Source: Actinokineospora sp. NBRC 105648
GTDB taxonomy: Bacteria; Actinomycetota; Actinomycetes; Mycobacteriales; Pseudonocardiaceae
Direction: 5' to 3'
Assembly: GCF_030269645.1 (NCBI RefSeq)
Contig: NZ_BSTR01000007.1
Coordinates: forward strand, 23,061 to 87,060
DNA length: 64,000 nt
Position numbers and translations under genes: made by a program. The notes under the pieces were generated by a model. That model was not told the origin of the DNA. It was given only the letters and a program-made list of their open reading frames with translations, and searched no databases. Positions 34,179-61,310 of the stretch are shown piece by piece (positions within the stretch are counted from its first letter, which is position 1; each line of letters starts with the position of its first letter).

Positions 34179-35081
34179 GTGTCGTTGCGGCGTGGGGCGA
34201 AGAACCAGAACCCCGAACTCGAACGCCTTGCCGCGCTCGCGGGCGAGGCGAGCGCGGAGGCGGCTGTCGCGATGGGACCGTCGAGTCCCAGCCACGCACC
34301 GGCACCGGTCGACCTCACCGCCGCCGCCTTCTTCGACGTCGACAACACGATCATGATGGGCGCGTCCATCTTCCACTTCGCCCGCGGCCTGGCCGCGCGC
34401 AAGTTCTTCTCCAACTCCGACCTGGTCAAGTTCGCCCTGCAGCAGGTGATGTTCCGCGTCGGCGGCCGGGAGACCGCCGACGGCATCCGCAGCAGCCGCG
34501 AACAAGCGCTGTCCTTTGTGGCCGGCCACACGGTCGCCGAACTGACCTCCCTCGGCGAGGAGATCTTCGACGAGCTGATGGCCGACAAGATCTGGCCCGG
34601 CACCCGAGCCCTGGCCCAGATGCACCTCGACGCGGGCCAACGGGTCTGGCTCGTCACCGCCACCCCGGTCGAACTGGCCACCATCATCGCCCGCCGACTC
34701 GGCCTCACCGGCGCCCTGGGCACAGTCGCCGAGAGCAACGACGGCGTCTTCACCGGCAAACTGGTCGGCGAAATGCTGCACGGCCCAGCCAAAGCCCACG
34801 CCGTCCGCTCACTGGCGGCCCGGGAAGGCCTGGACCTGCGCCGCTGCACGGCATACTCGGACTCGTCCAACGACGTACCGATGCTGTCCGTGGCAGGCAC
34901 GGCGGTCGCGGTCAACCCGGACAGCACCCTGAGGGAACTGGCCCGCAAACGAGGCTGGGAAATCCGCGACTTCCGCACCGGCAGGCGCGCGGCGAAGATC
35001 GGCGTGCCGTCGGTGCTCGGTGCAGGGGCACTGGCTGGAGCGGTAGCGGCAGGATTGGCCTACCGCAAACGCGCGATCTAA
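34179..35081 (+). CDS. HAD-IB family phosphatase (SerB-like) with C-terminal membrane helix
   Basis: A protein of 300 residues. HAD motifs: nucleophile [16 protein letters not shown] (about residues 48-63), motif [12 protein letters not shown], motif III lysine in [18 protein letters not shown] and the final acidic motif [15 protein letters not shown]. Homologues are annotated as SerB-like phosphatases or HAD-IB hydrolases. The C-terminus ends in a hydrophobic helix ([26 protein letters not shown]), suggesting membrane association. GTG start at 34179 with GGGGAGG upstream. Third gene after bldN, an arrangement also seen in Streptomyces from memory; corresponds to Rv0505c in mycobacterial order. 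Confidence 0.88.
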
Positions 35082-35226
35082 CCAGGCCCACCGGCCTGAT
35101 CAGACCCGCCACCCAATCCAATCCTTCAGTTCTTCAGCCGCAACGACCCTCAATTCCCTCCCTTAATCCCTATCCCTAAATCTCTAAATGCCGAGCCCGC
35201 TGGTACGCAACACCCGTTACGTTTGT

Positions 35227-35366
35227 GCTCGATTGGTTGGACTGCCTTCGTGTGGGGGGAGGCGACCGCTAAACTTGCCTCGGTGGTGGGGATGCCCTTC
35301 TCCCCACGCTTTTTCCCCACGCGGTCGCCTAGGGGCCCCACGCGAAGGCAGTCCAACCAATCGAGC
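35227..35366 (+). ncRNA. Candidate structured RNA / palindromic element, copy 1
   Basis: A 140-bp segment whose ends pair over 31 bp: 35227-35257 with 35336-35366, including one U-G pair. A 2/5-nt internal loop (GG opposite AGGGG) and a 10-bp inner stem (35260-35269 with 35321-35330) come next, then a 5' bulge beginning TAAACTTGCC and a small apical GTGGGG/CCCCAC stem. The loop contains ATGCCCTTC and CTTTTT. The same architecture and loop motifs recur at 35468-35607 and 47165-47305, although the stem sequences differ. No open frame. Identity as RNA is inferred; a non-autonomous mobile repeat is the main alternative. Flanks show no target duplication. Confidence 0.6.
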
Positions 35367-35467
35367 CCCGCTCTTACTTGGGCAACTCGGACCGTGTGCC
35401 GCACGCCGACCTACGGTCGACTGTCTTCGGCGGCCCATCGCTGGGGCTGCCCGAGGAAAAGATGGGG

Positions 35468-35607
35468 GCTCGATCTAGTGAACTCACTTCGTGCGGGGCC
35501 CCTAGAGCACCGCGGTGGTGAAAAAAGGGCGGGTGAAGGGCATTCCCCACCACCGGCGAGTTTAGCGGTGCTCTCCCCCCACACGAAGCGAGTCCACTAG
35601 ATCGAGC
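35468..35607 (-). ncRNA. Candidate structured RNA / palindromic element, copy 2
   Basis: A 140-bp copy in inverted orientation, 101 bp from copy 1. The 31-bp outer stem contains three G-U pairs when read on the minus strand, which would be A-C mismatches on the plus strand. The inner stem is AGAGCACCGC with its complement. Loop motifs TAAACTCGCC, ATGCCCTTC and CTTTTTT, and the CTAGGGGCCCC strand, are the same as in the other copies. Outer-stem positions 8-11, 18 and 19 differ from copy 1, with pairing retained at every one. It lies between convergent genes, so it could be a 3' UTR element of either, or an independent transcript. Confidence 0.6.
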
Positions 35608-35628
35608 ATCCGTAGCGGGCCTTGTGTT

Positions 35629-35785
35629 CCAGCGGGGTTGGCCTCACCGCTGCGGTTTGCCGGGGGGCGGGGAACCACTTGGGCGCCAACGGGGCTGGCC
35701 TGTCCGCTGCGGCTTGCCGAGGGGCGGGATTCACTTGGATGCCAGCGAGGTCGTCCTCTCCGCTGCGGTACCAGCGGAAGGAGAG
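35629..35785. repeat. 57-bp imperfect tandem repeat, nearly three copies
   Basis: Copies start at 35629, 35686 and 35742 (periods 57 and 56). Each starts with CCARCGRGG and contains TCCGCTGCGG or CACCGCTGCGG; the first two also contain GGGGCGGG and CACTTGG, and the third is truncated. The array sits between the palindromic element and the end of the acyltransferase gene. Nothing suggests that it is translated. The other gene-free sequence from 35082 to 35226 and 35367 to 35467 shows no recognisable signal. Confidence 0.75.
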
Positions 35786-35843
35786 AAGGGGTGGCGGGAT
35801 CCTGTCGGGTACCACCAGCGGGCTCATTTGTCCAATGTGGATG

Positions 35844-36824
35844 TTATCCGAAGAAGGGGTTTCCGCGCTGGTCCAGCATTCGGTACAGGGTCTGCTGGAT
35901 TGTCTCGCGGACCTGGTCGGTCAGTGTGAAGACCAGCATCGGGTCGTCCTGCGCGTCTTCCGCGTAGCCGTCTGTCTTGACTGGTTCGCCGAAGCGGATG
36001 TGCCACTTCGACGGGAGCGGGATTGCGCCGAGTGGGCCCAGTAGTGGGAAGAACGGGGTGATCGGGAAGTATGGGAGGCCGAAGAGCCTGGCCAGTGCCT
36101 TCACATCCCCGATCTTCGGGTAGATCTCTTCCGCGCCCACGATCGAGCACGGGATGATGGGGACTCCCGTACGCAGTGCCGCTGACACAAATCCGCCACG
36201 GCCGAAGCGTTGGAGTTTGTAGCGGTCTGTGAATGGTTTTCCGACGCCCTTGAAGCCCTCTGGCCACACGCCGACCAGTTCGCCGGAGCGCAGTAGTTGT
36301 TCGGCGTCGGGGTTGCAGGCCAGGGTTTGGCCGGACTTGCGGGCCAGCGCTCCCAGCATCGGTACCTGGAAGACCAGGTCCGCGCCGAGCATCCGCAGGT
36401 AGCGCTGCTGCGGGTGGTTGTCGTGCACGGCCACGGCGGTCATCAGGGCGTCGATGGGCAGGGTGCCGGAGTGGTTGGACACGATCAGTGCGCCGCCCTC
36501 GGCGGGGAGGTTCTCGATTCCGCTGACCTCGACTCGGAACCACTTCTGGTACAGCGCGCGCAGTGGTGGCAGCAGCAGGGTGTCCGTGAGCTCCTGGTCG
36601 AAGCCGAACTCGTCGACGGTGTAGTCGCCGCTGAGCCTGCGCCGGGCGAAGGCGAGGAGGTCGACTGCGCCCTTGCGCAGGCCCACGGGCTCCGTGCGGG
36701 CCGGGGCGGGGCGCAACGGGGTCGGCTGCACCGGTGGGCCCTCCACCGGCTGTGGGCGCCGGTGGTGGTCGGCCCGCTGGAGGGGGATCACGCGTGCTTC
36801 CTGCATACCTCTCGCCGCCTCCAT
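35844..36824 (-). CDS. Lysophospholipid acyltransferase family protein
   Basis: A protein of 326 residues with a PlsC-like domain: IVSNHSGTLPIDALMTAVAVHD (catalytic His), VFQVPMLGALARKSGQTLACNPDAEQLL, GVWPEGFKGVGKPFTDRYKLQRFGRGGFVSAA (GxxEGxK-type motif) and VPIIPCSIVGAEEIYP. The His and Asp are six residues apart (HSGTLPID) rather than four as in classical HX4D enzymes, as in the Rv0502 group. Likely role: acyl transfer onto a membrane lipid, acceptor unknown. ATG 36824 overlaps the epimerase stop by 1 nt; the much longer open frame upstream is a shadow. Confidence 0.85.
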   Translation of the reverse strand: MEAARGMQEARVIPLQRADHHRRPQPVEGPPVQPTPLRPAPARTEPVGLRKGAVDLLAFARRRLSGDYTVDEFGFDQELTDTLLLPPLRALYQKWFRVEVSGIENLPAEGGALIVSNHSGTLPIDALMTAVAVHDNHPQQRYLRMLGADLVFQVPMLGALARKSGQTLACNPDAEQLLRSGELVGVWPEGFKGVGKPFTDRYKLQRFGRGGFVSAALRTGVPIIPCSIVGAEEIYPKIGDVKALARLFGLPYFPITPFFPLLGPLGAIPLPSKWHIRFGEPVKTDGYAEDAQDDPMLVFTLTDQVRETIQQTLYRMLDQRGNPFFG

Positions 36825-37852
36825 CAGGTACGGGTCCCCGTGAGCCCGCGTTCCAGTCCGGCGAGCAGGGCCGGGTCGACGATCGGGCGCAGGCCGCTGC
36901 CGTGCACGAAGTCGTCGAAGGCCTGCCGGGTGGTCCAGCGCGGGGTGAAGCCGAAGACCGCGCGCAGCCTGGTCGTGTCCAGGACGCGGCCGTGGTTGAG
37001 GTAGCGCACGTGGTCCGGGGAGAAGTCGACCAGTCGTGCGCCGCGCAGCAGGCGGCCCGCTGAGGGCATCGCCGAGCGGGGGACCGGCAGCTGGAGCCTG
37101 CCCGCGCGGCGGATGGCCTGGGACAGCATCAGCACGCCGTCGCCGCCCGCGTTGAAGACGCCGGGCACCGGGTGCGTCGCCGCCCGCTCCAGCACGGCCA
37201 GGGCGTCCTCGGAGTGCAGCAGCTGGATGCGGGCGTCGTAGCCCAGCACCGTGGGCACCACCGGCAGCGAGAAGTACCGGGTGAGCACCGTGTCCACCCG
37301 GGGGCCGATCAGGTTGGTCAGCCGGATCACCGTGACGTCGATGTCCGGGCGCCTGCGGGCGAAGCCGCGCACGTAGCCCTCGACCTCGACGGCGTCCTTG
37401 GCGTAGCCGCTCGAGGAGATGTCGCGGGGGGCGTCGTCCTCGGTGAACACCGCGGGGGAACGGGCACCCGCACCGTAGACCGCGGCGGTCGACTTGACCA
37501 CCAGCCTGCGCACCGACGGTGCCCGCTGGCAGGCCGCCAGCAGCTGCATGGCGCCGATGACGTTCATCTCCTTGACCGCGCTGCGCCGGGACGGCCCGGG
37601 CGGGTGGGCCGCGAGCGAGGCGTGCACGACGGTGTCGACCTCGGCCGAGGTGATCACCTTCGCGATCAGCGGGTTGCGGATGTCGGCGCGGACGAACTCG
37701 GCGCGCCCCAGGGTGCGCGCCACGTCGCGGTTCGGGGCGGTGGTGTCCACGCCGAGCACGCGGTGGATCTCGGGGTTGGCCGCCAGCCGGGCGGCCAGGT
37801 GACCGCCGAGGTAGCCGCCGACCCCGGTGACCAGGACGACTTTGGGCGTCAT
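36824..37852 (-). CDS. NAD-dependent epimerase/dehydratase (GalE2/Rv0501-like)
   Basis: An extended SDR protein of 342 residues. The dinucleotide-binding motif is VLVTGVGGYLGGHLAARL at the N-terminus. In the active-site region, SSSGYAKDAVEVEGYV keeps Tyr but has no Lys four residues later, so the classical YxxxK pair is altered and ordinary epimerase chemistry is doubtful. It is co-translated with the acyltransferase (TGATG overlap), the same pair as Rv0501-Rv0502, which hints at lipid or envelope metabolism. ATG 37852. Confidence 0.85.
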   Translation of the reverse strand: MTPKVVLVTGVGGYLGGHLAARLAANPEIHRVLGVDTTAPNRDVARTLGRAEFVRADIRNPLIAKVITSAEVDTVVHASLAAHPPGPSRRSAVKEMNVIGAMQLLAACQRAPSVRRLVVKSTAAVYGAGARSPAVFTEDDAPRDISSSGYAKDAVEVEGYVRGFARRRPDIDVTVIRLTNLIGPRVDTVLTRYFSLPVVPTVLGYDARIQLLHSEDALAVLERAATHPVPGVFNAGGDGVLMLSQAIRRAGRLQLPVPRSAMPSAGRLLRGARLVDFSPDHVRYLNHGRVLDTTRLRAVFGFTPRWTTRQAFDDFVHGSGLRPIVDPALLAGLERGLTGTRT

Positions 37853-37980
37853 GGGCTCCCCTGGGGGCAGTGGGCGCTGGAGCCACCGACTCTACGCGCG
37901 GCGCAGCGGGCCACCGGCCCGGGCAACACACTCTTAACGCAGGTCACACGGGTTGTTCGCGACCGCCCCAACACGCGGCA

Positions 37981-38010
37981 GCGCCCGCTCCGGAAGGACC
38001 GGGCGGGCGC
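37981..38010 (-). terminator. Nested hairpin downstream of bS22
   Basis: GCGCCCG (37981-37987) pairs with CGGGCGC (38004-38010), enclosing a second small CGG/CCG pairing. It lies 19 bp past the bS22 stop on the minus strand. It lacks a T-run; termination here would separate bS22 from the epimerase gene. Confidence 0.5.
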
Positions 38011-38028
38011 CGCGCTTGCCGGGAGCAG

Positions 38029-38130
38029 CTACTTCTTGAGCTTGCGACGCTGGACGCGAGTCTTGCGCAGCAGCTTGCGGTGCTTCTTCTTCGACATGCG
38101 CTTGCGACGCTTCTTGATGACCGAGCCCAT
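38029..38130 (-). CDS. Small ribosomal protein bS22 (33 residues)
   Basis: A very short, highly basic protein of 33 residues, starting [20 protein letters not shown] after the initiator Met and ending in KLKK. This is nearly identical to mycobacterial Rv0500B as I recall it, now named bS22 and found bound to the 30S subunit. GAAGGA lies 5 nt upstream of the ATG at 38130. It follows the helix-turn-helix gene as in mycobacteria (Rv0500A-Rv0500B). Easily missed because of its size. Confidence 0.93.
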
Positions 38131-38294
38131 GTGTGTCCTTCGTGATCTAGAGCGGTCCCGCTCGCGCGTTACCGCCGTGGTCGTTCCGATGTCCGGCGCT
38201 CCGGTGTGGCGACGTCACGGACGCACGCCAGGACACCAGGCACAACGGCTGACCAGAGTACCCGCTCGTGTTCACCCCTTCGTCGCCGGGCGGC

Positions 38295-38513
38295 TCAGCC
38301 CGCGTCGAAGTAGGCGTTCTGCAGGTAGTCGTGCACGGCCTTCTCCGGCACGCGGAAGGACTTGCCGACCCGCACGGCGGGCAGTTCGCCGCTGTGCACG
38401 AGCCGGTAAACCGTCATCTTCGAGACCCGCATCAGGGTCGCCACCTCGGCCACCGTCAGGAATTGCACCTGCGGTAGTCCGTGGGGATCTTGGTCGCGCT
38501 TGCTCGCAGGCAT
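38295..38513 (-). CDS. Small helix-turn-helix (excisionase/MerR-like) DNA-binding protein
   Basis: A protein of 72 residues consisting of one winged helix: VQFLTVAEVATLMRVSKMTVYRLVHSGELPAVRVGKSFRVPEKAVHDYLQ. It is related in fold to BldC and to phage excisionases, but is a conserved chromosomal gene located between proC and bS22 (equivalent to Rv0500A). It probably binds DNA as a transcriptional or nucoid factor. ATG 38513. It is preceded by a 120-bp gap after proC. Confidence 0.88.
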   Translation of the reverse strand: MPASKRDQDPHGLPQVQFLTVAEVATLMRVSKMTVYRLVHSGELPAVRVGKSFRVPEKAVHDYLQNAYFDAG

Positions 38514-38633
38514 GATCCACCGCGTCCTTAACCACGCGTCGCGCCGCCGGCTTCCCCACCGACGGTTTCGACACGCACGTGTACCGATCGAGAGTAGCGG
38601 GACACGTGTGACTGGTGCGACGTCACTTTCGGC

Positions 38634-39464
38634 TCAATCTGCGTCGTGCGCCGCGCCGAGCTCGCGGGAGCGGTCGCGGGCGGCCTCGATGGCGGCCAGC
38701 AGCGCGGCCCGCACGCCGTGCCGCTCCAGCTCCCGGATGGCCATGATCGTGGTGCCCGCGGGCGAGGTCACGGCCTCGCGCAGGGTCACCGGGTGCTCGC
38801 CGGTCTCGACCAGCATCGCCGCGGCGCCCACCGCCGACTGCACGATCAGCTTCTCGGCCACCGCGCGCGGCAGGCCGAGCAGGATGCCCGCGTCGATCAT
38901 GGCCTCGACCAGGAAGAAGAAGTACGCCGGACCGGAACCCGAGAGCGCGGTCACCGCGTCCTGCTGCGACTCGGGCACCCGCACGACCTTGCCGACCACG
39001 GAGAGGATCTCCTCGACCACGGCCAGGTGCTCGGCCCCGGCGTGCGCGCCGGGGGAGATCGCGCTCATCGCCTCGCCGACCAGCATCGGGGTGTTCGGCA
39101 TGACCCGGACGACCGGCACCCCGGGCGGCAGCCGCCGCTCGAACAGCGCCGTGGGCAGCCCCGCGCACAGCGAGACGACGAGGGTGTCCGCGGTCACAGC
39201 GGGGGCCAGGTCGTCCAGCAGCGGCTCGATGTCCTGCGGCTTGACGGCCACGACCAGCACGTCGGCGCTCTTGGCCGCGGTCGGCACGTCGACGCCGCGG
39301 ATGCCGTAGGTGGCGGTCAGCTGCGCGGCGCGCTCGGCCGAGCGCTCAGTGAACAGCAGCTGCTCGGCCTGCCTGCCGCCGTGCAGCAGCCCGGACAGCA
39401 GCGCCTCGCCGATCTTGCCCGCGCCGAGCACGGCGATCACGGGCCGGGGGTTCGCCTCAGTCAT
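38634..39464 (-). CDS. proC: Pyrroline-5-carboxylate reductase (ProC)
   Basis: An enzyme of 276 residues that makes proline from pyrroline-5-carboxylate with NAD(P)H. The N-terminal Rossmann motif VIAVLGAGKIGEALLSGLL, VVAVKPQDIEPLLDDL, PVVRVMPNTPMLVGEAMSAISPG and the C-terminal family signature VTALSGSGPAYFFFLVEAMIDAGILLGLPR are all present. ATG 39464 is chosen over 39506 because the Rossmann domain normally starts within 10 residues. A proline dehydrogenase gene lies 1.2 kb upstream on the same strand. Confidence 0.97.
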   Translation of the reverse strand: MTEANPRPVIAVLGAGKIGEALLSGLLHGGRQAEQLLFTERSAERAAQLTATYGIRGVDVPTAAKSADVLVVAVKPQDIEPLLDDLAPAVTADTLVVSLCAGLPTALFERRLPPGVPVVRVMPNTPMLVGEAMSAISPGAHAGAEHLAVVEEILSVVGKVVRVPESQQDAVTALSGSGPAYFFFLVEAMIDAGILLGLPRAVAEKLIVQSAVGAAAMLVETGEHPVTLREAVTSPAGTTIMAIRELERHGVRAALLAAIEAARDRSRELGAAHDAD

Positions 39465-39512
39465 GCCGATCAGGCTAACGACCCTGCGCCGGACAGTCGC
39501 CGACAACCGGCG

Positions 39513-39743
39513 CTAGCAGTCCGAACCCGAGACCAGCCGGATCAGCGTCTCGTACGCCGGGTCGAGGTCCGGCGCGGTCGAGCAGACGACCACCCCGGGG
39601 TCGTCGCCCGCCAGCGCGACCGCCCAGGTCGCACCGGCGGCGACCAGCAGGGCGGCACCGGTCAGCACCAGCAGGCGGCGGGCCCGGCGCCGGTCCGGCG
39701 GCGGCCCCGGCGCGGGCACCAGCCAGTCGGGGGGTTCGGTCAT
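39513..39743 (-). CDS. Small single-span membrane protein
   Basis: A protein of 76 residues: a proline-rich cytoplasmic start (EPPDWLVPAPGPPPDRRRARR), one transmembrane helix (LLVLTGAALLVAAGATWAVAL) and a short outer segment with two cysteines (VVVCSTAPDLDPAYETLIRLVSGSDC) that could form a disulfide. The ATG at 39743 overlaps the upstream thioesterase stop as ATGA. No known family. Confidence 0.65.
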   Translation of the reverse strand: MTEPPDWLVPAPGPPPDRRRARRLLVLTGAALLVAAGATWAVALAGDDPGVVVCSTAPDLDPAYETLIRLVSGSDC

Positions 39744-40597
39744 CCGATCGCCGAGAGGGCCAGCTGGCGGGCCTGGCAGACCAGCCTGCCGGTGGCGTCG
39801 ACGACGGTGGCGTCGGAGTCGAACCACATCCCGTGCACCGCCTTGGACTCCACCTGGATGCGCAGCCAGCCCGGCGCCGGGCGGGACCGCAGGTGCGCGG
39901 TCAGCTGCACCGTGGGCGACCAGCCCAGCCTGCCCAGGTTGAACGTCACCGGCATCGAGATGTCGCCCGCCACCAGCGCGAACAGCGGGTCGGCGTGCTC
40001 ACCGCGCGGCCGCGCCCACAGCCGCAGCCGCAGCGGGTCGCCGATGTGGCCGTGCAGGAACCCGGCGCCGTTGGGGTCCAGGCGCACGTCGCAGACCTCG
40101 CTGAGCTTGAACGCCGAGGCCGACGGGACCGCGGCCAGGTCGATGGCGTTGCCGGGCGGCTCGGCGGGCTGGTTGGGCAGGTCGGCCCAGGCCGCCCGCT
40201 CCCGAGGCAGCCGACCGGTGGTGACCACGCCCTCGACGCAGCTGTGCCCGCTCTGCTCCAGGTGCACGGCCACCACCGTGGTGCGCCTGCCCGATTTGCG
40301 CACGTCGGTGCGCAGCAGCACCGGGCCGACCCCCGGCGGGCGCAGGAACTGCGCGCTCACCGACAGCGGGTCGACCAGCGGTGCGCCCGCGCCGCTATGC
40401 GTCGCGACCGCGGCCTTGGCCAGCAAGGCCATCAGGAAACCCCCGTGCGGGCGCCCACCGACCGTCCAGGGCGCCGGGAGATCGGCGGTGAATGTGCCGT
40501 CTCCCAGCGGTCGCACCCGAACGGCCGCGGCGAACGCCCCGCCTGCGGGGGCCGGACCGCCCGCCCGGACGTCGCCGTGCCCAGCAGCACTACTCAT
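39740..40597 (-). CDS. Thioesterase family protein (double hotdog, TesB-like)
   Basis: A protein of 285 residues with two hotdog-like halves: FTADLPAPWTVGGRPHGGFLMALLAKAAVATH ... LSVSAQFLRPPGVGPVLLRTDVRKSGRRTTVVAVHLEQ in the first, and FNLGRLGWSPTVQLTAHLRSRPAPGWLRIQVESKAVHGMWFDSDATVVDATGRLVCQARQLAL in the second. This is the actinobacterial acyl-CoA thioesterase domain type (PF13622). The acyl substrate is unknown. ATG 40597 is chosen over the upstream 40651. Coupled to the next small membrane protein gene by an ATGA overlap. Confidence 0.85.
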   Translation of the reverse strand: MSSAAGHGDVRAGGPAPAGGAFAAAVRVRPLGDGTFTADLPAPWTVGGRPHGGFLMALLAKAAVATHSGAGAPLVDPLSVSAQFLRPPGVGPVLLRTDVRKSGRRTTVVAVHLEQSGHSCVEGVVTTGRLPRERAAWADLPNQPAEPPGNAIDLAAVPSASAFKLSEVCDVRLDPNGAGFLHGHIGDPLRLRLWARPRGEHADPLFALVAGDISMPVTFNLGRLGWSPTVQLTAHLRSRPAPGWLRIQVESKAVHGMWFDSDATVVDATGRLVCQARQLALSAIG

Positions 40598-40658
40598 GGG
40601 CGATAGCCTGCCACGCCCGCGCTCGCGATTTTGCGCTGTGCCACGGATCAAGCGCGAC

Positions 40659-41585
40659 TCAGCTCTTGGACACCAGCGCGCGCAGGAAGAAGACCGTGTT
40701 GGCCGGGCGCTCGGCCATCCTGCGCATGAGGTACCCGTACCACTCGCCGCCGTAGGGGACGTACACCCGCACGGTGTGGCCGAGCTGGGCCAACCGGAGC
40801 TGCTCCTCGGGTCGGATGCCGAAGAGCATCTGGTGCTCGAAGGTCCCGGGCTTGCGGCCGTGCGCCTCCGCGCGCTCGCCGATGATCCGCACCAGGCGCG
40901 GGTCGTGGGTGGCGAACTTCGGGTAGCCCTCGCCCGCCAGCAGCGCGTTCATGCAGCGCACGTAGCTCTTGTCGACCTCTTCCATCTCCTGGAAGGCGAC
41001 GCTCTCGGGCTCCTTGTAGGCGCCCTTGCACAGCCGCACCCGCGACCCCTCGGTCGCCAGCGCGGTGGCGTCGTCGAGGGTGCGGTGCAGGTAGGACTGG
41101 ATCACCGCGCCGACCCACGGCCAACTGGTCCGCAGCTGGGCCAGGATGCGCAGGGTCGAGTCGGTGGTGGTGTGGTCCTCCATGTCGAGGGTGACCGTCG
41201 TGCCCGCCGCCTCGGCCGCCCGGCAGATGCGCGAGGCGTTCTCCAGCGCCAGGTCCTCGTCCAGGAGCTGTCCGACGGCCGAGAGCTTGACACTGACCTC
41301 AGCCCGGTCGGACAGGCCCTCGGCGTGCAACTGGCCCAGCAGGTCCAGGTAGGCCTGCACGGTGTGCTCGGCCAGGGACGCGTCGGTGGTGTCCTCACCG
41401 AGGTAGTCGAGGGTGACGGTGAGACCGGACTGGACGAGCCGCCGGGTGACGGCGACCGCCTCGGCGGTGGTCTCGCCCGCCACGAAGCGGCGGACCACGT
41501 CCCGGCTGACGGGAGCGGTCGCCACCAGACGGCGGATGGTGCCGTTTCGGGCGGCAGCCAGGATCAACGAGCGCAACGGGTTCAC
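40659..41585 (-). CDS. Proline dehydrogenase
   Basis: An FAD-dependent TIM-barrel enzyme of 308 residues that oxidises proline to pyrroline-5-carboxylate and passes electrons to the quinone pool. Characteristic segments: DTTDASLAEHTVQAYLDLLGQL, VSVKLSAVGQLLDEDLALENASRICRAAEAAGTTVTLDMEDHTTTDSTL, QSYLHRTLDDA, RLCKGAYKEPESVAF and FEHQMLFGIRPEEQ. A single-domain enzyme, not the PutA fusion. GTG 41585 as start. It lies beside proC, so the genes for making and degrading proline are close together; no P5C dehydrogenase gene is in the window. Confidence 0.93.
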   Translation of the reverse strand: MNPLRSLILAAARNGTIRRLVATAPVSRDVVRRFVAGETTAEAVAVTRRLVQSGLTVTLDYLGEDTTDASLAEHTVQAYLDLLGQLHAEGLSDRAEVSVKLSAVGQLLDEDLALENASRICRAAEAAGTTVTLDMEDHTTTDSTLRILAQLRTSWPWVGAVIQSYLHRTLDDATALATEGSRVRLCKGAYKEPESVAFQEMEEVDKSYVRCMNALLAGEGYPKFATHDPRLVRIIGERAEAHGRKPGTFEHQMLFGIRPEEQLRLAQLGHTVRVYVPYGGEWYGYLMRRMAERPANTVFFLRALVSKS

Positions 41586-41643
41586 GAGCGGAACTGTACG
41601 GCCCGATCGCCCGCGCGCAACCATCCGTCCGGTCGTCCTACGT

Positions 41644-42444
41644 TTAGGCCGTTTCGCCTAGGTGCAGGCGGGCGAACAGCAGCGCCTCGGCCAGGTCGCG
41701 CACCCGGTCGGCCGGGTCGCGGGCCCGCCGGGTGCTGATCTCGACCACCACCTGGCCGGTGAAGCCCCGCTCGACCAGCCACTCGCACAGCCGCGCGCAC
41801 GGCTGGTCGCCGCGGCCGGGCACCAGGTGCTCGTCCTTGCGCAGGCCGGTGCCGTCGGCCAGGTGGACGTGCCGCAGGTTGTCGCCCATCCGGCCGGCCA
41901 GCGCCATCGCGTCCATCCGCGCGGCCGAGGTGTGCGACAGGTCGATGGTGTAGTTGCGGTGCCCGACGTCGGTCGGGTCGATCGAGGGCCGGAACGCGGT
42001 CATCTCCACCGACCGCACACCCAGCTCGCGCCGCACCGGGAACATGTTCTCCACCGCGACGGCGACCCCGCTGGTGTCCTCCAGCCCGGTGACCAGGTCG
42101 GCGAACCCGTCGGCGTAGCGGCGCTGCCAGCGGAACGGCGGGTGCACCACGACGGTCGGCGCGCCCAGGTCCTGCGCGGCCTCCACCGCTCGGCGCAACC
42201 GCACCTCGGGGTCCGGCGACCAGATCCGCTGGGTGATCAACAAGCACGGCGCGTGCACCGCCATGACCGGGACCCCGGTGCGCCGGGCGCGGCGGGCCAG
42301 CGCGGGCACGTCCTGGCTGAGCGGGTCGGCCCAGACCATCACCTCGACGCCGTCGTAGCCCAGCTCGCCCGCCAGCTCGAAGGCCGCCGAGGCCGTCCGC
42401 GGCCACACCGACGCCGTGGACAGGCCGATCGGGACCCGGGTCAA
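41644..42444 (-). CDS. Sugar phosphate isomerase/epimerase family protein
   Basis: A TIM-barrel protein of 266 residues of the AP-endonuclease 2/xylose-isomerase-like family. It starts RVPIGLSTASVWPRTASAAFELAGELGYDGVEVMVW. Candidate metal ligands are in VMAVHAPCL, TVVVHPPFRWQ, AVENMFPVR, IDLSHTSAARMD and VVVEIS. The substrate is unknown (Rv0498-like). The start is inferred as TTG at 42444, which overlaps the upstream TGA as TTGA, matching the overlap style of other gene pairs here. Probably in one operon with the proline-rich membrane protein and the Ppx/GppA gene. Confidence 0.82.
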   Translation of the reverse strand: MTRVPIGLSTASVWPRTASAAFELAGELGYDGVEVMVWADPLSQDVPALARRARRTGVPVMAVHAPCLLITQRIWSPDPEVRLRRAVEAAQDLGAPTVVVHPPFRWQRRYADGFADLVTGLEDTSGVAVAVENMFPVRRELGVRSVEMTAFRPSIDPTDVGHRNYTIDLSHTSAARMDAMALAGRMGDNLRHVHLADGTGLRKDEHLVPGRGDQPCARLCEWLVERGFTGQVVVEISTRRARDPADRVRDLAEALLFARLHLGETA

Positions 42445-43886
42445 CGCCCCAGCAGCAGCAGGGCGGCCGGGGAGACCGTCGCGAGCAGGCCGACCAGCAC
42501 GGCCAGCACGGTGGTCTGCAGGTCCTCGGCCTTGCGGACCTTGCGCACGATCAGCACCAGTCCGACGATCACGACCAGCGCGCCGATCAGGGCGGCGGCG
42601 GGCAGCACCCGCCAGAGCCAGTTGAAGCCCAGCCAGACGGCCGCGCCGCCGACCACGCCCAGGGCCAGCTGCCCGGCCATGATCAGCCACTCGCGCCCGG
42701 GCGAGCCCTCGGCCGCGGGCTCGGCCTCCTCGGCCCGCTCCCGGTCGTCCTCGTCGTCCCGGTCGTCGAGGTCGGTGCGCTCGTCCCGGTCGTCGAAGTC
42801 GTCGAACTCGTCATCGAGGTCGGCGCCCGCGGCCCGGCCGCGCGGCGGCCGCCCGGCGGGGAACTCGTCGTGCGCCTCGTAGTCGGTGAACCGGCCCGCA
42901 GCCTTGTCGTCGAAGCCCTCGAACTCCTCGTGGAACTCCGGCGGCGGGCCGCTCGCGTCGACCGCGGTCTCGGCCGAGTCACCTGCGAACTCCGGCCTGC
43001 CGCGCTGCGGCCCGAACCCGGGCCTGCCGGGGCCGGGCGCGTCCGGCGGCGGGGCGGGCAACTGCTGCGAGGGCTGTTGCTGCTGGGCGGGTTGCTGCTG
43101 GGACGGCTGGGGCCCGCGAGCTGTGCCGGGCGCCCGGCGGGGCAGCAGCGGGGCGCGGTTGGGCGCCTTGGCCAGCCCGGCGGGGGGCTCGGCCGGGTCC
43201 GGACCGCGGTCGTCGACGGGCACCGGCGGCAGCCGCCCCGGCGGCGGGCCGACGGGTCGGTCGGGTTCGGGTGGGCGCGTCCGGTCGACGGCCGGGCCGG
43301 GCTCACCGAGCGGGCGCGGCGGCCCGCCGGGTTCGGCGGGCACCCGGGGCAGCTGCTCGGTGTGCGGTTCGGCCTGGTCGAGCCGGGCGGCGGGCGGGCG
43401 CTGGTCGACCGGCGGCATGACCCGCTGCGGGGCGTGCGGCGGCGGCGCGACCGGGCGGTGCTGCTCGGTCGGCGGCTGGACCGGGTCGACCCGCGGCGGC
43501 CGCTGCCCCGGGCGGGGCGGGACGACCGGGCGGTGCTGCTCGGTGGGCGGCTGCTCGACCCGGCCGTTGACCGGGCCCCGGCGCTCGGTGGGGGGCAGCT
43601 CGACCGGCGGCCGCGGCTGGGCCTGCGGGGGGACGGGCAGCTGCTGGGACGGCTGCGGGCGGCCCTGCCGGTGCGAGGTGCGCTCGTGCGGGCCCTGGTC
43701 CTCGCGGATCGGCAGCAGCTTGCCGCTGTCGGACATGACCCGCTCGATGATCGCCTGCGGAGCGGTCTCCGAGGCGTCGTCTGGCTTGCGCCGACGACGC
43801 CTGGGGGCGCTCTCACCCGAGCTGCCGCCGTACTTGGCCAGCAACTCGGCGACAGTGCGCTGTTCCGAACCGCCTTCTTGACTCAT
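42441..43886 (-). CDS. Proline-rich membrane protein (Rv0497-like)
   Basis: A protein of 481 residues. The N-terminus SEQRTVAELLAKYGG and the RRRRRKP cluster match the start of mycobacterial Rv0497 as I recall it. A long Pro/Gln/Arg-rich disordered stretch (about 60-310) has recurring PPTEQHRPV units, followed by an acidic segment (DLDDEFDDFDDRDERTDLD). Three C-terminal helices follow (about 400-481). The role is unknown. GTG 43895 is an alternative start three codons upstream. Confidence 0.75.
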   Translation of the reverse strand: MSQEGGSEQRTVAELLAKYGGSSGESAPRRRRRKPDDASETAPQAIIERVMSDSGKLLPIREDQGPHERTSHRQGRPQPSQQLPVPPQAQPRPPVELPPTERRGPVNGRVEQPPTEQHRPVVPPRPGQRPPRVDPVQPPTEQHRPVAPPPHAPQRVMPPVDQRPPAARLDQAEPHTEQLPRVPAEPGGPPRPLGEPGPAVDRTRPPEPDRPVGPPPGRLPPVPVDDRGPDPAEPPAGLAKAPNRAPLLPRRAPGTARGPQPSQQQPAQQQQPSQQLPAPPPDAPGPGRPGFGPQRGRPEFAGDSAETAVDASGPPPEFHEEFEGFDDKAAGRFTDYEAHDEFPAGRPPRGRAAGADLDDEFDDFDDRDERTDLDDRDDEDDRERAEEAEPAAEGSPGREWLIMAGQLALGVVGGAAVWLGFNWLWRVLPAAALIGALVVIVGLVLIVRKVRKAEDLQTTVLAVLVGLLATVSPAALLLLGR

Positions 43887-43973
43887 CCACTCCACCGTGC
43901 CCCGTGCTGGCCGATCCGTCCAGTGCCGGCACGCTCCGCGGGTGACCGCGCTGGCGCGGCCACCCCGATCATG

Positions 43974-44927
43974 TCAGTCCGAGAGGACAGTGTGGTCCTC
44001 ACCATTCGTCTGGTCCAGCCGTCGGAGGATGACGCCCTCGCGCAGCGCCCACGGCCCGATCTCCACCTCGGGCAGTGACAACGCTCGCATAGTGGCCTGC
44101 GCCACCAGCGCCCCGGCCACCAGTTGGTGCGCCCGGCTGGGGCTCACGCCCTCCAGCTGGGCCAGGTCCGCGGCCGACATCCGGGTGACGAAGGCGATCA
44201 GCTGGCTCAGCCCGGTCTCGGTGAGCACCCGGCGCACCCGGGGCCCGGCCGAGGACGGCGCGGCACCGGTGAGCCGGGCCAGGGTGCGGAAGGTCTTGGA
44301 GGTGGCCACCGCGCGGTCGGGCACGCCGAACTTGGCCGCGCGCCGGGCGACCGGGGCGAGCTGGTCGGCCAGCCACTCCGCGGTGCGCCCCACCTGCTCG
44401 CGGGTCGGCGGGTCGCTGGTGAACCGGGTCCGGGTGAGCCTGCCCGCGCCCAGCGGCAGCGACCAGGCGAAGTCGGGGTCCTCGTCGATCCCGGCGGCGA
44501 TCTCCAGCGAGCCGCCGCCGATGTCGAGGACCAGCAGGTTGCCCGCCGACCAGCCGTACCAGCGGCGGGCGGCGAGGAAGGTGTAGCGGGCCTCGTCCTC
44601 CCCGGAGAGGACCTTGAGCTCGACCCCGGTCTCCTTGGCCACCCGGCGCAGCACCGCGGCGGAGTTGCCCGCCTCGCGCACCGCCGAGGTGGCGAAGGCC
44701 ATCAGGTCCTCGCAGCCCAACCGGACCGAGGACTCCTTGGCCGCGGCCACCGTCCGGACCAGCTCGTCGGCGCCCACCCGGGACAGCTGGCCGGAGGCGG
44801 TGATCCGCTCGGCCAGCCGCAGCACGGTCTTCTCCGACCGGGCGGGCGTCGGGTGGGCACCCCGACGAGCGTCCACCACGAGCAGGTGGACGGTGTTGGA
44901 GCCGACGTCAAGCACACCTAGGCGCAC
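43974..44927 (-). CDS. Ppx/GppA family phosphatase
   Basis: A protein of 317 residues of the ASKHA fold: LGVLDVGSNTVHLLVVDA (phosphate 1), MAFATSAVREAGNS, LSGEDEARYTFLAARRWYG and LVLDIGGGSLEIAAGID (phosphate 2). These enzymes hydrolyse exopolyphosphate or pppGpp. The short one-domain form equals Rv0496 (an exopolyphosphatase), which lies next to senX3-regX3, linking it to phosphate homeostasis. GTG start at 44927. 24 bp downstream of the regX3-like gene, thus probably in the same transcript. Confidence 0.92.
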   Translation of the reverse strand: MRLGVLDVGSNTVHLLVVDARRGAHPTPARSEKTVLRLAERITASGQLSRVGADELVRTVAAAKESSVRLGCEDLMAFATSAVREAGNSAAVLRRVAKETGVELKVLSGEDEARYTFLAARRWYGWSAGNLLVLDIGGGSLEIAAGIDEDPDFAWSLPLGAGRLTRTRFTSDPPTREQVGRTAEWLADQLAPVARRAAKFGVPDRAVATSKTFRTLARLTGAAPSSAGPRVRRVLTETGLSQLIAFVTRMSAADLAQLEGVSPSRAHQLVAGALVAQATMRALSLPEVEIGPWALREGVILRRLDQTNGEDHTVLSD

Positions 44928-44951
44928 GGCAGAACCGTACAGGTCGGGTGA

Positions 44952-45641
44952 TCAGGACTCGAACTTGTAACCCAGGCCGCGCACCGTGACCAGGTGCCGC
45001 GGCGAGGCCGGGTCGGGCTCGATCTTGGACCGCAGCCGCTTGACGTGCACGTCCAGGGTCTTGGTGTCCCCGACGTAGTCCGCGCCCCACACCCGGTCGA
45101 TGAGCTGGCCGCGGGTGAGCACCCGGCCGACGTTGCGCAGCAGGTACTCCAGCAGGTCGAACTCCTTGAGCGGCAACGGGATGTCGGTGCCGTCCACAGT
45201 GACCACGTGCCGCTCGACGTCCATTCGGACCGGTCCGGCCGCGAGCACCTGGGGCAGCAGCTCGCCGTCGCCACCGGCCTCGCCGCCGCGGCGCAGCACC
45301 GCGCGGACCCGGGCGATCAGCTCGCGCGCGGAGTACGGCTTGGTGACGTAGTCGTCGGCGCCGAGCTCGAGCCCGACCACCTTGTCGATCTCGCTGTCCC
45401 GGGCGGTCACCATGATCACCGGCACGGCCGAGCGCTGGCGCAGCGCCTTGCAGACGTCGGTGCCGCTCATCCCGGGCAGCATCAGGTCCAGCAGCACGAT
45501 GTCGGCGCCGTTGCGGTCGAACTCCTCCAGCGCCTGCTGGCCGGTCGCGGCCACCGCGGCGGTGAAGCCCTCCTTGCGCAGCAGGAAGGCAAGCGGGTCG
45601 GCGAAGGACTCCTCGTCCTCGACGATCAGCACTCTCGTCAT
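44952..45641 (-). CDS. regX3: Response regulator RegX3 (OmpR/PhoB type)
   Basis: A protein of 229 residues. Receiver domain: TRVLIVEDEESFADPLAF, phosphoacceptor Asp in DIVLLDLMLPGMSG (about residue 52), VTARDSE and DYVTKPYSARELIARVRAVLRR. A winged-helix effector domain follows (PLKEFDLLEYLLRNVGRVLTRGQLIDRVWGADYVGDTKTLDVHVKRLRSKIE). Partner of SenX3 and regulator of phosphate-starvation genes. The ATG at 45641 has GGAGGA upstream and overlaps the kinase stop (ATGA). Confidence 0.93.
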   Translation of the reverse strand: MTRVLIVEDEESFADPLAFLLRKEGFTAAVAATGQQALEEFDRNGADIVLLDLMLPGMSGTDVCKALRQRSAVPVIMVTARDSEIDKVVGLELGADDYVTKPYSARELIARVRAVLRRGGEAGGDGELLPQVLAAGPVRMDVERHVVTVDGTDIPLPLKEFDLLEYLLRNVGRVLTRGQLIDRVWGADYVGDTKTLDVHVKRLRSKIEPDPASPRHLVTVRGLGYKFES

Positions 45642-46858
45642 GCCATTCCTCCGTGATCGGTAACCGCGCCGTCGGCTTTCGACGGTGCGCTCCCCCGGCC
45701 GCCCACCTTGATGAGCTCCACGCCGTTGGTGGTCTCCGCCGGGGTGTCGATGTGCGCGGGTATGCGCAGGGTGAAGGTCGACCCGAGACCGGGCTTGCTC
45801 CACAGCCGCACCTCGCCGCCGTGGTTGGCCGCGACGTGCTTGACGATCGCCAGCCCGAGGCCGGTGCCGCCGGTGGCGCGCGAGCGGGCCTTGTCGACGC
45901 GGTAGAACCGCTCGAACACCCGCTGCTGCTCCTCCTCGGCGATGCCGATGCCGCGGTCGGTCACCGCGATCTCGATGAACCCGCCCGCGCGGGTGCGGCT
46001 CACCGACACCGGACTGCCCGGTGGCGAGTAGGCCAGCGCGTTCTCCAGCAGGTTCGACAGGGCCGTCACCAGCAGCGTGCGGTCGCCCTCGACCAGCAGG
46101 CCGCTGTCCTCGTCGGTGGTGACCTCGATGCCGGTGGACTCCATGACCAGCTGGGCGCGGCCCATGGCCTCGCGCACCACGGCGTCGACGTCGACGGTGT
46201 TCATCTCCGGCAGCCGCTCGGCGCCCTGCAGCCGCGACAGCGCGATCAGCTCGGTGACCAGCAGCCCGAGCCGGTTGCCCTCGCGCAGGATCTTGGCGGT
46301 GAACCGGCGCACCTCGACCGGGTCGTCCGCGGCGTCGAGGACGGCCTCGGCCAGCAGGGCCATCGCGCCGACCGGGGTCTTGAGCTCGTGGCTGACGTTG
46401 GCCACGAAGTCGCGCCGGGTGGCCTCCAGCCGGACCGCCTCGGACTGGTCGTCGGCGTCGACGGCGGTGAACCCGTCGCCGAGCGGCCGGACCTCGCCGA
46501 GCACCGCCTCCGGCGTGCGGCCGCCGCGCGACTCCAACGGCGAGAGATCGATCTCGATCGGCTCGTTGGTCTCGACCACCACCTCGGCGGCCTTGCGGGC
46601 GCGGTCGTCGACCCGGTTGTTGCGCACCAGGCCGAGCTCCTCGGCGCGCGGGTTGTGGATCACCACGTCACCGAAGTGGTTGAGCACCACCACGCCGGTG
46701 TGGGTGGAGTGGATGATCCGTTGGACCAGGTCGGCGACGGTGGGGCCGGTCGGCGTGCGGCCGGTGTTCCGCGGCCGGGAGCGGCCGATCAGGAAACCGA
46801 CGAACAGGCCGATCAGCAGGATGCCGAGCGACAGCGCGAAATAGACCGGGGCGGCCAC
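45638..46858 (-). CDS. senX3: Sensor histidine kinase SenX3
   Basis: A protein of 406 residues. N-terminal membrane helix (PVYFALSLGILLIGLFVGFLIGR), a PAS-like region (about 45-140: IHSTHTGVVVLNHFGDVVIHNPRAEELG), a dimerisation/H-box (VANVSHELKTPVGAMALLAEAV) and the ATPase domain (NLLENALAYSP, DRGIGIAEEEQQRVFERFYRVDKARSRATGGTGLGLAIVKHVAANHGG). Phosphate-sensing partner of RegX3. GTG 46858 is the best available start although it has no clear ribosome-binding site. A longer open frame upstream lacks codon bias. The leader contains a palindrome and a copy of the 140-bp hairpin element. Confidence 0.9.
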   Translation of the reverse strand: MAAPVYFALSLGILLIGLFVGFLIGRSRPRNTGRTPTGPTVADLVQRIIHSTHTGVVVLNHFGDVVIHNPRAEELGLVRNNRVDDRARKAAEVVVETNEPIEIDLSPLESRGGRTPEAVLGEVRPLGDGFTAVDADDQSEAVRLEATRRDFVANVSHELKTPVGAMALLAEAVLDAADDPVEVRRFTAKILREGNRLGLLVTELIALSRLQGAERLPEMNTVDVDAVVREAMGRAQLVMESTGIEVTTDEDSGLLVEGDRTLLVTALSNLLENALAYSPPGSPVSVSRTRAGGFIEIAVTDRGIGIAEEEQQRVFERFYRVDKARSRATGGTGLGLAIVKHVAANHGGEVRLWSKPGLGSTFTLRIPAHIDTPAETTNGVELIKVGGRGSAPSKADGAVTDHGGMA

Positions 46859-46982
46859 GCCATGGATCGTAAGCAGTCGGACCGGCCCTTTGACCAGCCC
46901 GGACGGCGCATTGGTGACCGTGCCGACACCGTTGCGCCTGCTTGTTCCCCGACCGGCCAAGCCTCGTTCACTCGATCGTGTC

Positions 46983-46996
46983 CTACTGATCAGTAG
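46983..46996. promoter_or_regulatory. Perfect palindrome upstream of senX3
   Basis: CTACTGATCAGTAG is a perfect 14-bp palindrome 125 bp upstream of the senX3 start, in the most AT-rich part of the region. It is almost the same as the core of the palindrome between the AMP-ligase and bldN genes. It does not look like a RegX3 or PHO-box direct repeat. The binding protein is unknown. Confidence 0.45.
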
Positions 46997-47164
46997 CTTT
47001 CGGGGGTGCTGCGGGCGTTGCTGCCGTCCATTCCCTGTTCGGGGGATCACACCCGGGCGTATGGGTCTTGGTCGTGTCGGGCTCTTGGTGGACGCGCCTC
47101 GGGGCTTGCTTGCGTGCGGCTTGCCTGGGGGTGGGGTGCGCCTCGGGGTTTGCTCGGGCGGGGT

Positions 47165-47305
47165 GCTGGATTGGGTGGAGTGGCTTTGCCCGGGGCCCCT
47201 AGGGGCGATCGTCGTGGGAAAAGCGGGTGGGGAAGGGCATCCCACGACCACAGCAAGTTTACGATCGCCCCTCCCCCCAGACAAAGCCACTCCACCCAAT
47301 CCAGC
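47165..47305 (-). ncRNA. Candidate structured RNA / palindromic element, copy 3
   Basis: A 141-bp element on the minus strand. Arms of 24 bp pair perfectly (47165-47188 with 47282-47305), and seven further pairs, two of them U-G, complete the 31-bp outer stem. The inner stem is 11 bp (AGGGGCGATCG). The apical stem GTCGTGGGA/TCCCACGAC is the longest of the three copies. TAAACTTGC, ATGCCCTTC, CTTTT and CTAGGGGCCCC are conserved. It lies between gpmA and senX3, on the same strand as both, so it could be in the gpmA 3' UTR or the senX3 leader. Confidence 0.6.
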
Positions 47306-47553
47306 AGGTGGGTTGTGAGGTGCGGTTGTGTTGGGAGACAAGGGTTGCTGGAGTTTTTGGGCGTCCGCGATGGGGCTTGGCGTGGGGCTTGAGCAAGCTC
47401 GGGCGGGCGAGGCAGAAGGGGCACTCGGCTCGCGGAGGCAAAAGCGGCGGGGTGCGTTCACCCGTGCTGTCGTGCGGCGGGGGTGTCGGTGCAGCCGGGG
47501 TGTCGCGCCAACCGGTTGGGTTAGTCGGGTTGGTCGAAGTGGATGACCAGGGC

Positions 47554-47615: not shown

Positions 47616-48362
47616 CTAGCGGCCCTGATTGGCGACCTTGTTGATCGCGGCGGCGGCGGCCTCGGGGTCGAGGTATTCGCCGCCGGGGGTGGTGGGTTTG
47701 AGGGTGTCGTCCAGGTCGTAGCGCAGCGGGATGCCGGTGGGGATGTTCAGGCCGGCGATGGCCTCGTCGGAGATGCCGTCGAGGTGCTTGACCAGGGCGC
47801 GCAGCGAGTTGCCGTGTGCGGCGACCAGCACCGTCTTGCCCGCGCGGAGGTCGGGGACGATCTCGTCCTCCCAGTACGGGATCAGCCGGGCGAAGACGTC
47901 CTTGAGGCACTCGGACAGCGGTGCGCGGTCGCCGAGGTGGGCGTAGCGGGGGTCGGCGTCCTGGCTGAACTCGCTGCCCTTCTCGATCGGGGGCGGCGGG
48001 ACGTCGTAGGAGCGGCGCCAGAGCATGAACTGCTGCTCGCCGAACTCCGCGAGGGTCTGCTTCTTGTCCTTGCCCTGCAGCGCCCCGTAGTGCCGCTCGT
48101 TGAGCCGCCAGTCGCGCTTGACCGGGATCCAGTGCCGGTCGGCGGCGTCGAGGGCCAGGTTCGCCGTGGTGATCGCGCGCCGCTGCAGGGAGGTGTGCAC
48201 GACGTCGGGGAGGACGTTCGCGGCGCGCAGCAGTTCGCCGCCCCGGGTCGCCTCGGTGACGCCCTTGTCGGATAGCTGGACGTCAACCCAGCCGGTGAAC
48301 AGGTTCTGTGCGTTCCACACGCTCTCGCCGTGGCGGAGCAGCACCAGGGTTGCGATGGCCAT
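47616..48362 (-). CDS. gpmA: 2,3-bisphosphoglycerate-dependent phosphoglycerate mutase
   Basis: A glycolytic enzyme of 248 residues that interconverts 3- and 2-phosphoglycerate. Phospho-His is in [29 protein letters not shown] (about residue 12). It also has [41 protein letters not shown] and the second His in [19 protein letters not shown]. Equivalent to Rv0489 (gpm1), directly upstream of senX3 as in mycobacteria. ATG 48362 is chosen over 48410. Confidence 0.96.
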
Positions 48363-61170: not shown

Positions 61171-61310
61171 TCGCCTCGCCTCGCCTCGCCTCGCCTCGCC
61201 TCGCCTCGCCTCGCCTCGCCTCGCCTCGCCTCGCCTCGCCTCGCCTCGCCTCGCCCCGCCCCGCCCCGCCCCGCCCCGCCCCGCCCCGCCCCGCCCCGCC
61301 CCGCCCCGCC
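61171..61310. repeat. Pentanucleotide microsatellite (TCGCC)17(CCGCC)11
   Basis: Seventeen perfect TCGCC units (61171-61255) followed by eleven perfect CCGCC units (61256-61310). The minus strand of the second block is a run of GGGGC-like tracts able to form G-quadruplexes. The array ends 240 bp upstream of the purU start. Five-base units change frame and spacing with each slippage event. Confidence 0.97.

Follow-up and report, generated by a model that had tools for sequence, protein, structure and literature searches.

Dispersed folded repeats of an apparently undescribed family in Actinokineospora and related soil bacteria

Three hairpins of the window and their fold

The window, a 64,000-nt stretch of the genome of Actinokineospora sp. 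NBRC 105648 (G000), contains three similar hairpins that raise the question of whether they represent a selected RNA structure or a mobile DNA repeat. They lie where a preliminary description had placed them: hairpin A (type A) at 35227..35366 on the plus strand, hairpin B (type B), facing A, at 35468..35607 on the minus strand, and hairpin C at 47165..47305, also on the minus strand, each delimited by sequence and fold. The spacer between A and B (35367..35467, 101 bp) is weakly self-complementary, with fold z-scores of -2.1 and -2.5 on its two strands. Column conservation and aligned flanks indicate that the 5' flank of A, about 50 nt long (35173..35226, plus strand), is conserved among type-A copies. 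The 5' flank of B (35608..35784, minus strand) contains degenerate tandem repeats (repeat family D2) whose unit is about 57 bp long, with an array of 2.5 copies and period 57 at 35629-35768. According to the aligned flanks, short sequences on the 5' side of C (47306..47326, minus strand; 13 C-like copies) and on its 3' side (47139..47164, minus strand) are conserved in type-C copies.

The fold also agrees with the one first proposed, namely a 31-bp outer stem, a 2/5-nt internal loop, an inner stem (10 to 12 bp across the three hairpins), a 5' bulge containing TAAACTYGC and an apical part. With DNA parameters, the fold z-scores of A, B and C are -11.2, -9.6 and -9.1, and none of 200 shuffles of each folded as well; the inverted arms of 31 bp correspond to the terminal inverted repeats of a MITE. 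The ten outer-stem positions said to vary with pairing always kept (4, 8, 9, 10, 11, 16, 18, 19, 23 and 26) do differ between A, B and C and retain a standard pair in each, but this does not extend to all copies, pair 11 being a G-G mismatch in 26 of the 77 complete ones. Likewise, the loop motifs are almost invariant among the types of G000, whereas family-wide it is the architecture and shorter motifs that persist. Hairpin length is 139-149 nt in the examples from the genus and about 115-165 nt elsewhere.

No described family was known to match these motifs, and this still stands: over the whole window Rfam 15 gave no match at gathering scores, and in the A/B region its only hits, two miRNA families with long hairpins, were at chance level (E 0.009 and 0.38) and fell far short of their gathering scores. 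NCBIfam gave none, solved structures gave one meaningless match (E 0.008), and our literature search found no publication on this hairpin family.

Copy number and genomic placement

The family had been described as having three copies; it occupies at least 113 distinct places in G000, a minimum that is the union of three lists from 40, 40 and 53 scored candidates and includes a few copies cut at contig ends. Reading 52 of the G000 loci yielded 79 hairpins, 38 of type A and 28 of type B; for type C, nine copies with 90-100% identity, C itself included, were listed in this genome. In all 27 A/B-type pairs read, the two hairpins face inward across a spacer of 92-102 bp, mostly between convergent genes. 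Such inverted doublets in extragenic space are the arrangement of REPINs, and clusters of hairpins also occur (loci L062 and L075). By a hand count in which the origin was taken as coordinate 1, 27 of 45 hairpins in G006 and G014 were oriented as expected for their replichore.

According to a GC3 ORF rule, all 39 classifiable G000 loci are intergenic (of the remainder, 12 were at edges and one was inside an over-long open frame). Convergent genes surround 22 of them, tandem genes 14 and divergent genes 3, compared with 45 convergent and 37 divergent among 245 neighbouring ORF pairs. This bias would be expected of REP/BIME-like elements that are kept in fold and position by selection for terminating transcription, or for shielding the 3' ends of mRNAs, where genes converge; an inward pair would then act for both of the genes. 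We nevertheless consider this explanation unlikely: the tandem loci do not fit it, the conserved bulge and loop motifs and the three-helix form exceed what a terminator needs, in other genera the hairpins flank a nuclease gene and point outward, and the same placement would result if insertion elsewhere were harmful.

Covariation, strand asymmetry and spread

Among 12 types of G000 aligned by MAFFT without reference to the structure, 17 of 44 predicted pairs showed two-sided change. RNAalifold misplaced the inner stem on this alignment; inner stems were supplied for models R2 and R3. In the model-fitted set from the genus (38 hairpins, 14 genomes), 41 of 48 pairs covary and 98.5% of the cells are paired, with a covariation of 0.755 compared with 0.202 after shuffling and at most 0.106 after sliding; for the 41 model-fitted hairpins of other genera the values are 46 of 48 pairs, 96.1%, 0.707, 0.164 and at most 0.088. 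Three helices covary. Weak rows that were reverse-strand shadows of hairpins already in the count were removed beforehand by an E-value limit, which removed L067 as well. Wobbles are biased to one strand (88 G-T versus 4 A-C; 144 versus 4 and 38 versus 16 in other counts), which means that one strand is selected in folded form. The family clearly illustrates that a dispersed repeat can show strand-specific covariation.

The proposal of a selected RNA structure is therefore borne out as regards a selected secondary structure, well beyond the data of A, B and C, but not as regards RNA, since an ssDNA hairpin with a function would produce an identical pattern, down to the G-T wobbles. Nor is the choice between structure and mobile repeat a clean one, as features of both are present: the copies are dispersed, those of one genome often being almost identical, and a strong covariation specific to one strand is seen across types and species.

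A covariance model found relatives of the hairpins in 58 of 390 Pseudonocardiaceae genomes (12 of 46 genera), and a class-wide sample of 394 genomes gave matches in two, both Actinokineospora; copies per genome range from 1 to 107 in 20 chosen genomes. Phages and plasmids gave no match by DNA similarity to A, and a pattern search of viral contigs gave none. Six hairpin sites are orthologous between G227 and G228, so that the hairpins there have been stable; core identity at these sites is 0.93-0.98, compared with 0.61-0.96 in the adjoining flanks, and orthologous copies are barely closer than paralogous ones (0.88-0.98). Loci L058 and L067 hold a hairpin at an orthologous place and in the same orientation with different stems. 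The 20 copies compared in G409 were taken from the best-scoring ones, and their likeness is partly due to that choice.

Stable sites with a core more identical than its flanks, the L058/L067 pair and strand-specific covariation with conserved loops are what one would expect of a structured RNA serving the host, either a gene for a small RNA or an element acting in cis within transcripts, multiplied and kept for its function, with mobility incidental. The widely differing copy numbers, the patchy presence and the small distance advantage of orthologous over paralogous copies point the other way; moreover, among the 15 other genus genomes the A/B site is occupied in one and the C site in none, and ORF clustering of sampled loci revealed no gene family recurrent beside the Actinokineospora hairpins. 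We regard such an RNA as improbable.

Both genes next to the A/B locus are readable in five of the 15 relatives, and none offers a clean empty site: in G013 the gap is 197 bp, versus 762 in G000, and no junction can be aligned, and the remaining four have an additional gene in between, P450-like by sequence reading. No target duplication was found at the hairpins, whose flanks are degenerate arrays without a clean empty site for comparison. In a further explanation, the hairpins would be MITE-like repeats of an ordinary DDE transposon, their long terminal inverted repeats being recognised as duplex and kept complementary by correction between the arms. Near-identical short non-coding copies with long inverted ends suit it; however, duplex correction predicts no strand preference, whereas the wobbles fall on one strand, and covariation in three helices and conserved loops argue against it as well; no target duplication was seen. 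It seems to us slightly less probable than the two preceding explanations.

DUF222-HNH genes and a proposed origin of the hairpins

In some other genera, the hairpins stand on both sides of a DUF222-HNH gene and point outward. Starting from hairpins, we fetched 199 loci by score or pattern, some overlapping, 152 from Actinokineospora (L069 being assigned there) and 47 from elsewhere. The gene was present in 10 of the 47; an apparent DUF222 match in L186 was false, consisting of 24 residues inside hairpin DNA. In G247 all four hairpin-flanked loci have the gene: L237 and L238 show DUF222 and HNH, the HNH of L238 scoring just below the cut-off (20.9 of 21.4 bits), and L235 shows DUF222 only. Starting instead from 30 DUF222 loci not chosen by hairpin, we found hairpins at E <= 1e-5 in nine, namely 6/7 in G281, 3/8 in G261 and 0/15 in the rest, and all 12 hairpins point away from the gene (2 of 14 rows were dropped as reverse-strand shadows). 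G261 also has another class of hairpin, 91 nt in length. The R3 hairpin is absent at the other five loci of G261 and at all 15 of G000, G006, G228, G189 and G029, including the single DUF222 gene of G000. An earlier clustering of 494 ORFs, which outside Actinokineospora covered one or two loci per genome, gave no cluster in more than five loci and missed this link. A reverse transcriptase was discarded as universal mobiliser, since RVT_1 matched 3 of 16 genus genomes, including G000 (3 matches).

The reading we favour, tentatively and at slightly less than an even chance, is that of a REPIN-like mobile family whose hairpin forms the terminus of a DUF222-HNH element and of which the window copies are derivatives. 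The full element would consist of a DUF222-HNH nuclease gene between two outward hairpins, the hairpin being the recognised terminal part; solitary hairpins and inward pairs, as in the window, would be non-autonomous derivatives with a REPIN-like organisation, though of several times the size and with another enzyme as putative partner. The hairpin strand would fold in single-stranded form, which could be RNA or the ssDNA of replication or repair; the DUF222-HNH protein would recognise the fold via the internal loop, the 5' bulge and the apical hairpin and then cut, and a copy would land in intergenic DNA. Selection would purge copies in genes and promoters, which would leave most of them between convergent genes.

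This reading is supported by the covariation, the strand asymmetry, the dispersal, the inward pairs and the outward hairpins beside DUF222 genes, and also by the homology between paralogous elements of G261, which stops 15-31 nt outside the hairpins. In G247 the ends are less sharp, homology continuing 40 to about 160 nt beyond the hairpins into array-like flanks. The L241 hairpin is 99% identical to the element ends of G247 and adjoins a DUF222 fragment only 33% identical, a pattern that also fits hairpins exchanged between, or inserted beside, DUF222 genes. Against a DUF222-HNH element, no DUF222 gene lies nearby at any of the 152 Actinokineospora loci read; the inward pairs have the reverse of the order around the nuclease gene; neither an empty site nor a target duplication was found; the orthologous sites of G227 and G228 speak for stable hairpins there; and G003 and G010 have hairpins though PF02720 is absent (G012 also has no match, G000 has one and G006 two). 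Because of those 152 loci, movement of the window copies in trans by such an enzyme is something that we infer, as are recognition, cutting and transposition as such. A search of plasmids for DUF222-HNH gave 7 remote records. The strongly selected structure on both sides of such genes, together with its gene-less derivatives in high copy, offers a concrete substrate on which the action of the nuclease can be tested.

It is also conceivable, albeit quite unlikely, that the DUF222-HNH nuclease uses its own structured RNA, the transcribed hairpin being a putative cofactor or guide analogous to OMEGA RNA and the gene-less hairpins non-autonomous RNA genes; if true, this would be a new class of mobile system independent of OMEGA. 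True REPINs moved in trans by a Y1 (HUH) RAYT-type transposase would share the extragenic location of inverted doublets and singlets as well as the clusters of L062 and L075, but they are very improbable here: the length is 140 versus 20-40 bp for REPs, and among 16 genus genomes PF01797 matched two, G006 and G014, and not G000, where a RAYT/Y1 mobiliser is unsupported; this absence is credible since the search finds matches in 5 of 14 control genomes. The family points to the existence of REPIN-like populations in genomes where no Y1 transposase can be detected.

Compared with known systems, the mobile family that we favour shares features with several. IscB combines RuvC and HNH domains, and its HEARO/OMEGA RNA is a structured element that adjoins the HNH nuclease gene and also occurs without it. 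The hairpins resemble it in both respects; however, the gene here combines DUF222 with HNH, and the HEARO covariance model of Rfam 15 has no match in the window or in the A/B region. MITEs are similarly dispersed, short and non-coding with long inverted ends, but the hairpins differ from them in strand-specific covariation across three helices, in conserved loops and in that target duplication was not found. The DUF222-HNH (REP13E12, 13E12) genes of actinobacteria are likewise multi-copy and stand between hairpins in G247, G261, G281 and others, whereas most hairpins here are without a gene; our literature search found neither structured ends of these repeats nor a function or mobility mechanism of the genes in print. 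REPINs are described as singlets and inverted doublets located in extragenic DNA (PMC3116915), and REPs as measuring 20-40 bp (PMC3733652). With REPIN/REP sequences and their RAYT (TnpA-REP) the family has in common high-copy extragenic hairpins, spaced inverted doublets, singlets, clusters and species-own types; it differs in that the unit is a 140-bp three-helix hairpin and that, in place of the Y1 enzyme, not found in G000, a DUF222-HNH gene sits between the hairpins in other genera.

Hairpins in the window and its relatives

Hairpins A (35227-35366, + strand), B (35468-35607, − strand) and C (47165-47305, − strand) lie where the preliminary description had placed them, and the sequence of each gives the fold described. 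A and B face each other across a spacer of 101 bp, with a HAD-hydrolase gene (34179-35081, + strand) and an acyltransferase gene (− strand, ending at 35844) as neighbours; C is flanked by a His_Phos_1 gene (47616-48410, − strand) and a histidine-kinase gene, also on the − strand. The window also contains a 24-bp unit repeated 9.3 times with 98% matches (1-224), a degenerate array with a 28-bp unit in 15.7 copies (58086-58521) and 28 tandem copies of CCTCG (61169-61310); no hairpin of the family was found in the latter two.

The proposal that the family has three copies was not upheld: the union of DNA searches with A and C and a model search gave at least 113 places in G000, the 8.43-Mb genome (149 contigs) from which the window comes. 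The search with A gave at least 40 near-full-length places in the type-A orientation, with 89-100% identity and in a few cases truncated by the end of a contig, together with about 20 partners on the opposite strand at 75-78% identity; type-C copies numbered nine including C itself (90-100% identity). The 52 loci that we read contain 79 hairpins (38 of type A, 28 of type B and 13 C-like), the 77 complete ones falling into 11 types at 93% identity. All 27 pairs read point inward with a spacing of 92-102 bp; 25 hairpins are alone within the stretches read, some at contig ends. In L012 (1-160), a type-B hairpin is apparently broken at the contig end by a coding sequence that, by eye, resembles a transposase gene end.

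A pattern scan of named genomes gave at least 53 stretches, all from Actinokineospora among the matches listed. The covariance model R1 matched 17 of 61 genomes (16/16 Actinokineospora and 1/21 others of the bacterial family), the match in G012 being a single weak partial one. Model R3 (E ≤ 1e-4) matched 58 of the 390 genomes of the bacterial family, in 12 of 46 genera and in 15/16 Actinokineospora; across the class it matched 2/394, both Actinokineospora. Twenty chosen genomes carry from 1 to 107 hairpins each.

Pairing and the selected strand

When 12 G000 sequences were aligned without fitting to the structure, two-sided changes were present in 17 of 44 predicted pairs. In model-fitted alignments, whose pairing percentages are biased upward, 98.5% of cells were paired with two-sided change in 41/48 pairs (38 hairpins, 14 Actinokineospora genomes), and 96.1% with two-sided change in 46/48 pairs (41 hairpins of other genera); shuffled and slid controls gave far lower values than both sets. 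Stems clearly different between species were still complementary when each hairpin was folded singly. Pairing is not strict at every position: pair 11 is G-G in 26 of the 77 complete G000 copies. At outer-stem pair 23, 21 of the 41 other-genera hairpins are unpaired, mostly T-C, and this is perhaps a recognition feature.

Counted as alignment cells rather than independent events, wobbles in the 77 G000 copies (outer stems) comprise 144 G-T and 4 A-C. The corresponding counts are 88 and 4 for the Actinokineospora alignment, and 38 and 16 for that of other genera, where some A-C cells resemble alignment slips. Taken per pair position, G-T occurs at 26/48 and A-C at 4/48 in the Actinokineospora alignment. 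Since the wobbles lie on one strand, they fit selection on a single strand and not correction between the arms of duplex DNA. One strand is selected in its folded state, which may be that of an RNA or of ssDNA.

Dispersal, stability and flanks

Twenty copies from the genome G409, picked among the best-scoring, have nearly identical cores and similar short flanks, and diverge further out. G227 and G228 contain 7 and 8 hairpins, and six sites are orthologous, with identities of 0.93-0.98 in the core and 0.61-0.96 in the adjoining flanks; paralogous cores are 0.88-0.98 identical. L058 and L067 share an orthologous place and hairpin orientation, with very different stems. At the A/B place a hairpin pair is present in one of the 15 other Actinokineospora genomes, G001, whose pair belongs to a type of its own; none of the 15 has a hairpin of the family at the C place.

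The 39 classifiable G000 loci comprise 22 convergent, 14 tandem and 3 divergent ones, against 45, 163 and 37 among 245 neighbouring ORF pairs, with ORFs called by a GC3 rule and hairpin-bearing loci included in the baseline; unclassified are 12 loci reaching an edge and the C locus, inside an over-long open frame. A different long hairpin, its arms about 40 bp in length if two mismatches are tolerated, lies beside a gpm-like gene in G010 (L161, 1375-1488), where model R2 gave no match.

Degenerate short arrays are found on both sides of the hairpins, the 5' ones differing from the 3' ones and both between species (including L276-L315); in L241 (1784-2150) the 3' array is built of repeats of the terminal part of the hairpin arm. 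Such arrays could arise when replication stalls at the hairpin. In G228, one hairpin directly adjoins a perfect, roughly 56-bp tandem repeat (L215, 4200-4534).

A nuclease gene between hairpins

Inverted hairpin pairs 1.2-2.1 kb apart were noticed in G247 during a genome survey, and all four loci fetched have a DUF222-HNH nuclease gene between the hairpins, intact in L235 and L238, split over two frames in L236 and with a duplication in L237. In a test without hairpin-based choice, PF02720 (DUF222) was searched in 12 genomes and was present in 7; hairpins (E ≤ 1e-5) occur in 9/30 PF02720 loci (G281 6/7, G261 3/8), and in 0/15 from G000, G006, G228, G189 and G029 at that threshold. Each of the 12 hairpins that these nine loci contain is oriented away from the gene. 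Counting from the hairpins, the gene is present at 10/47 loci of other genera and at 0/152 Actinokineospora loci; it is the sole gene found repeatedly beside these hairpins, in other genera. Homology between paralogous elements ends 15-31 nt beyond the hairpins in G261 and extends 40 to about 160 nt beyond them, into array-like flanks, in G247. The ORFs of L219, L234 and L271 are intact and, read by eye, keep HNH-type residues. A second hairpin class, of 91 nt, lies 5' of the DUF222 gene in four G261 loci (L253 and L259, 2549-2639; L262, 2562-2652; L265, 2540-2630), both its arms differing between copies yet complementary.

We propose that DUF222-HNH elements end in this hairpin, which would be the part recognised, and that the window copies are derivatives. 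L241, in which a 99%-identical hairpin adjoins a DUF222 fragment only 33% identical, also allows hairpin exchange between DUF222 genes or insertion beside them. The weak point of a DUF222-HNH origin is Actinokineospora, with few or no DUF222 matches and none beside the hairpins read; PF02720 has one match in G000, two in G006 and none in G003, G010 and G012. There, the enzyme might have been lost after the copies spread, or another enzyme might act. In the inward pairs, the ends presumed to be the outer ones face one another, in the opposite order to that round the nuclease gene.

The family differs from REPINs in that their defining Y1 enzyme is absent from G000, PF01797 being present in 2/16 Actinokineospora genomes. 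It is like them in organisation, REPINs being described as inverted doublets and singlets in extragenic space (PMC3116915).
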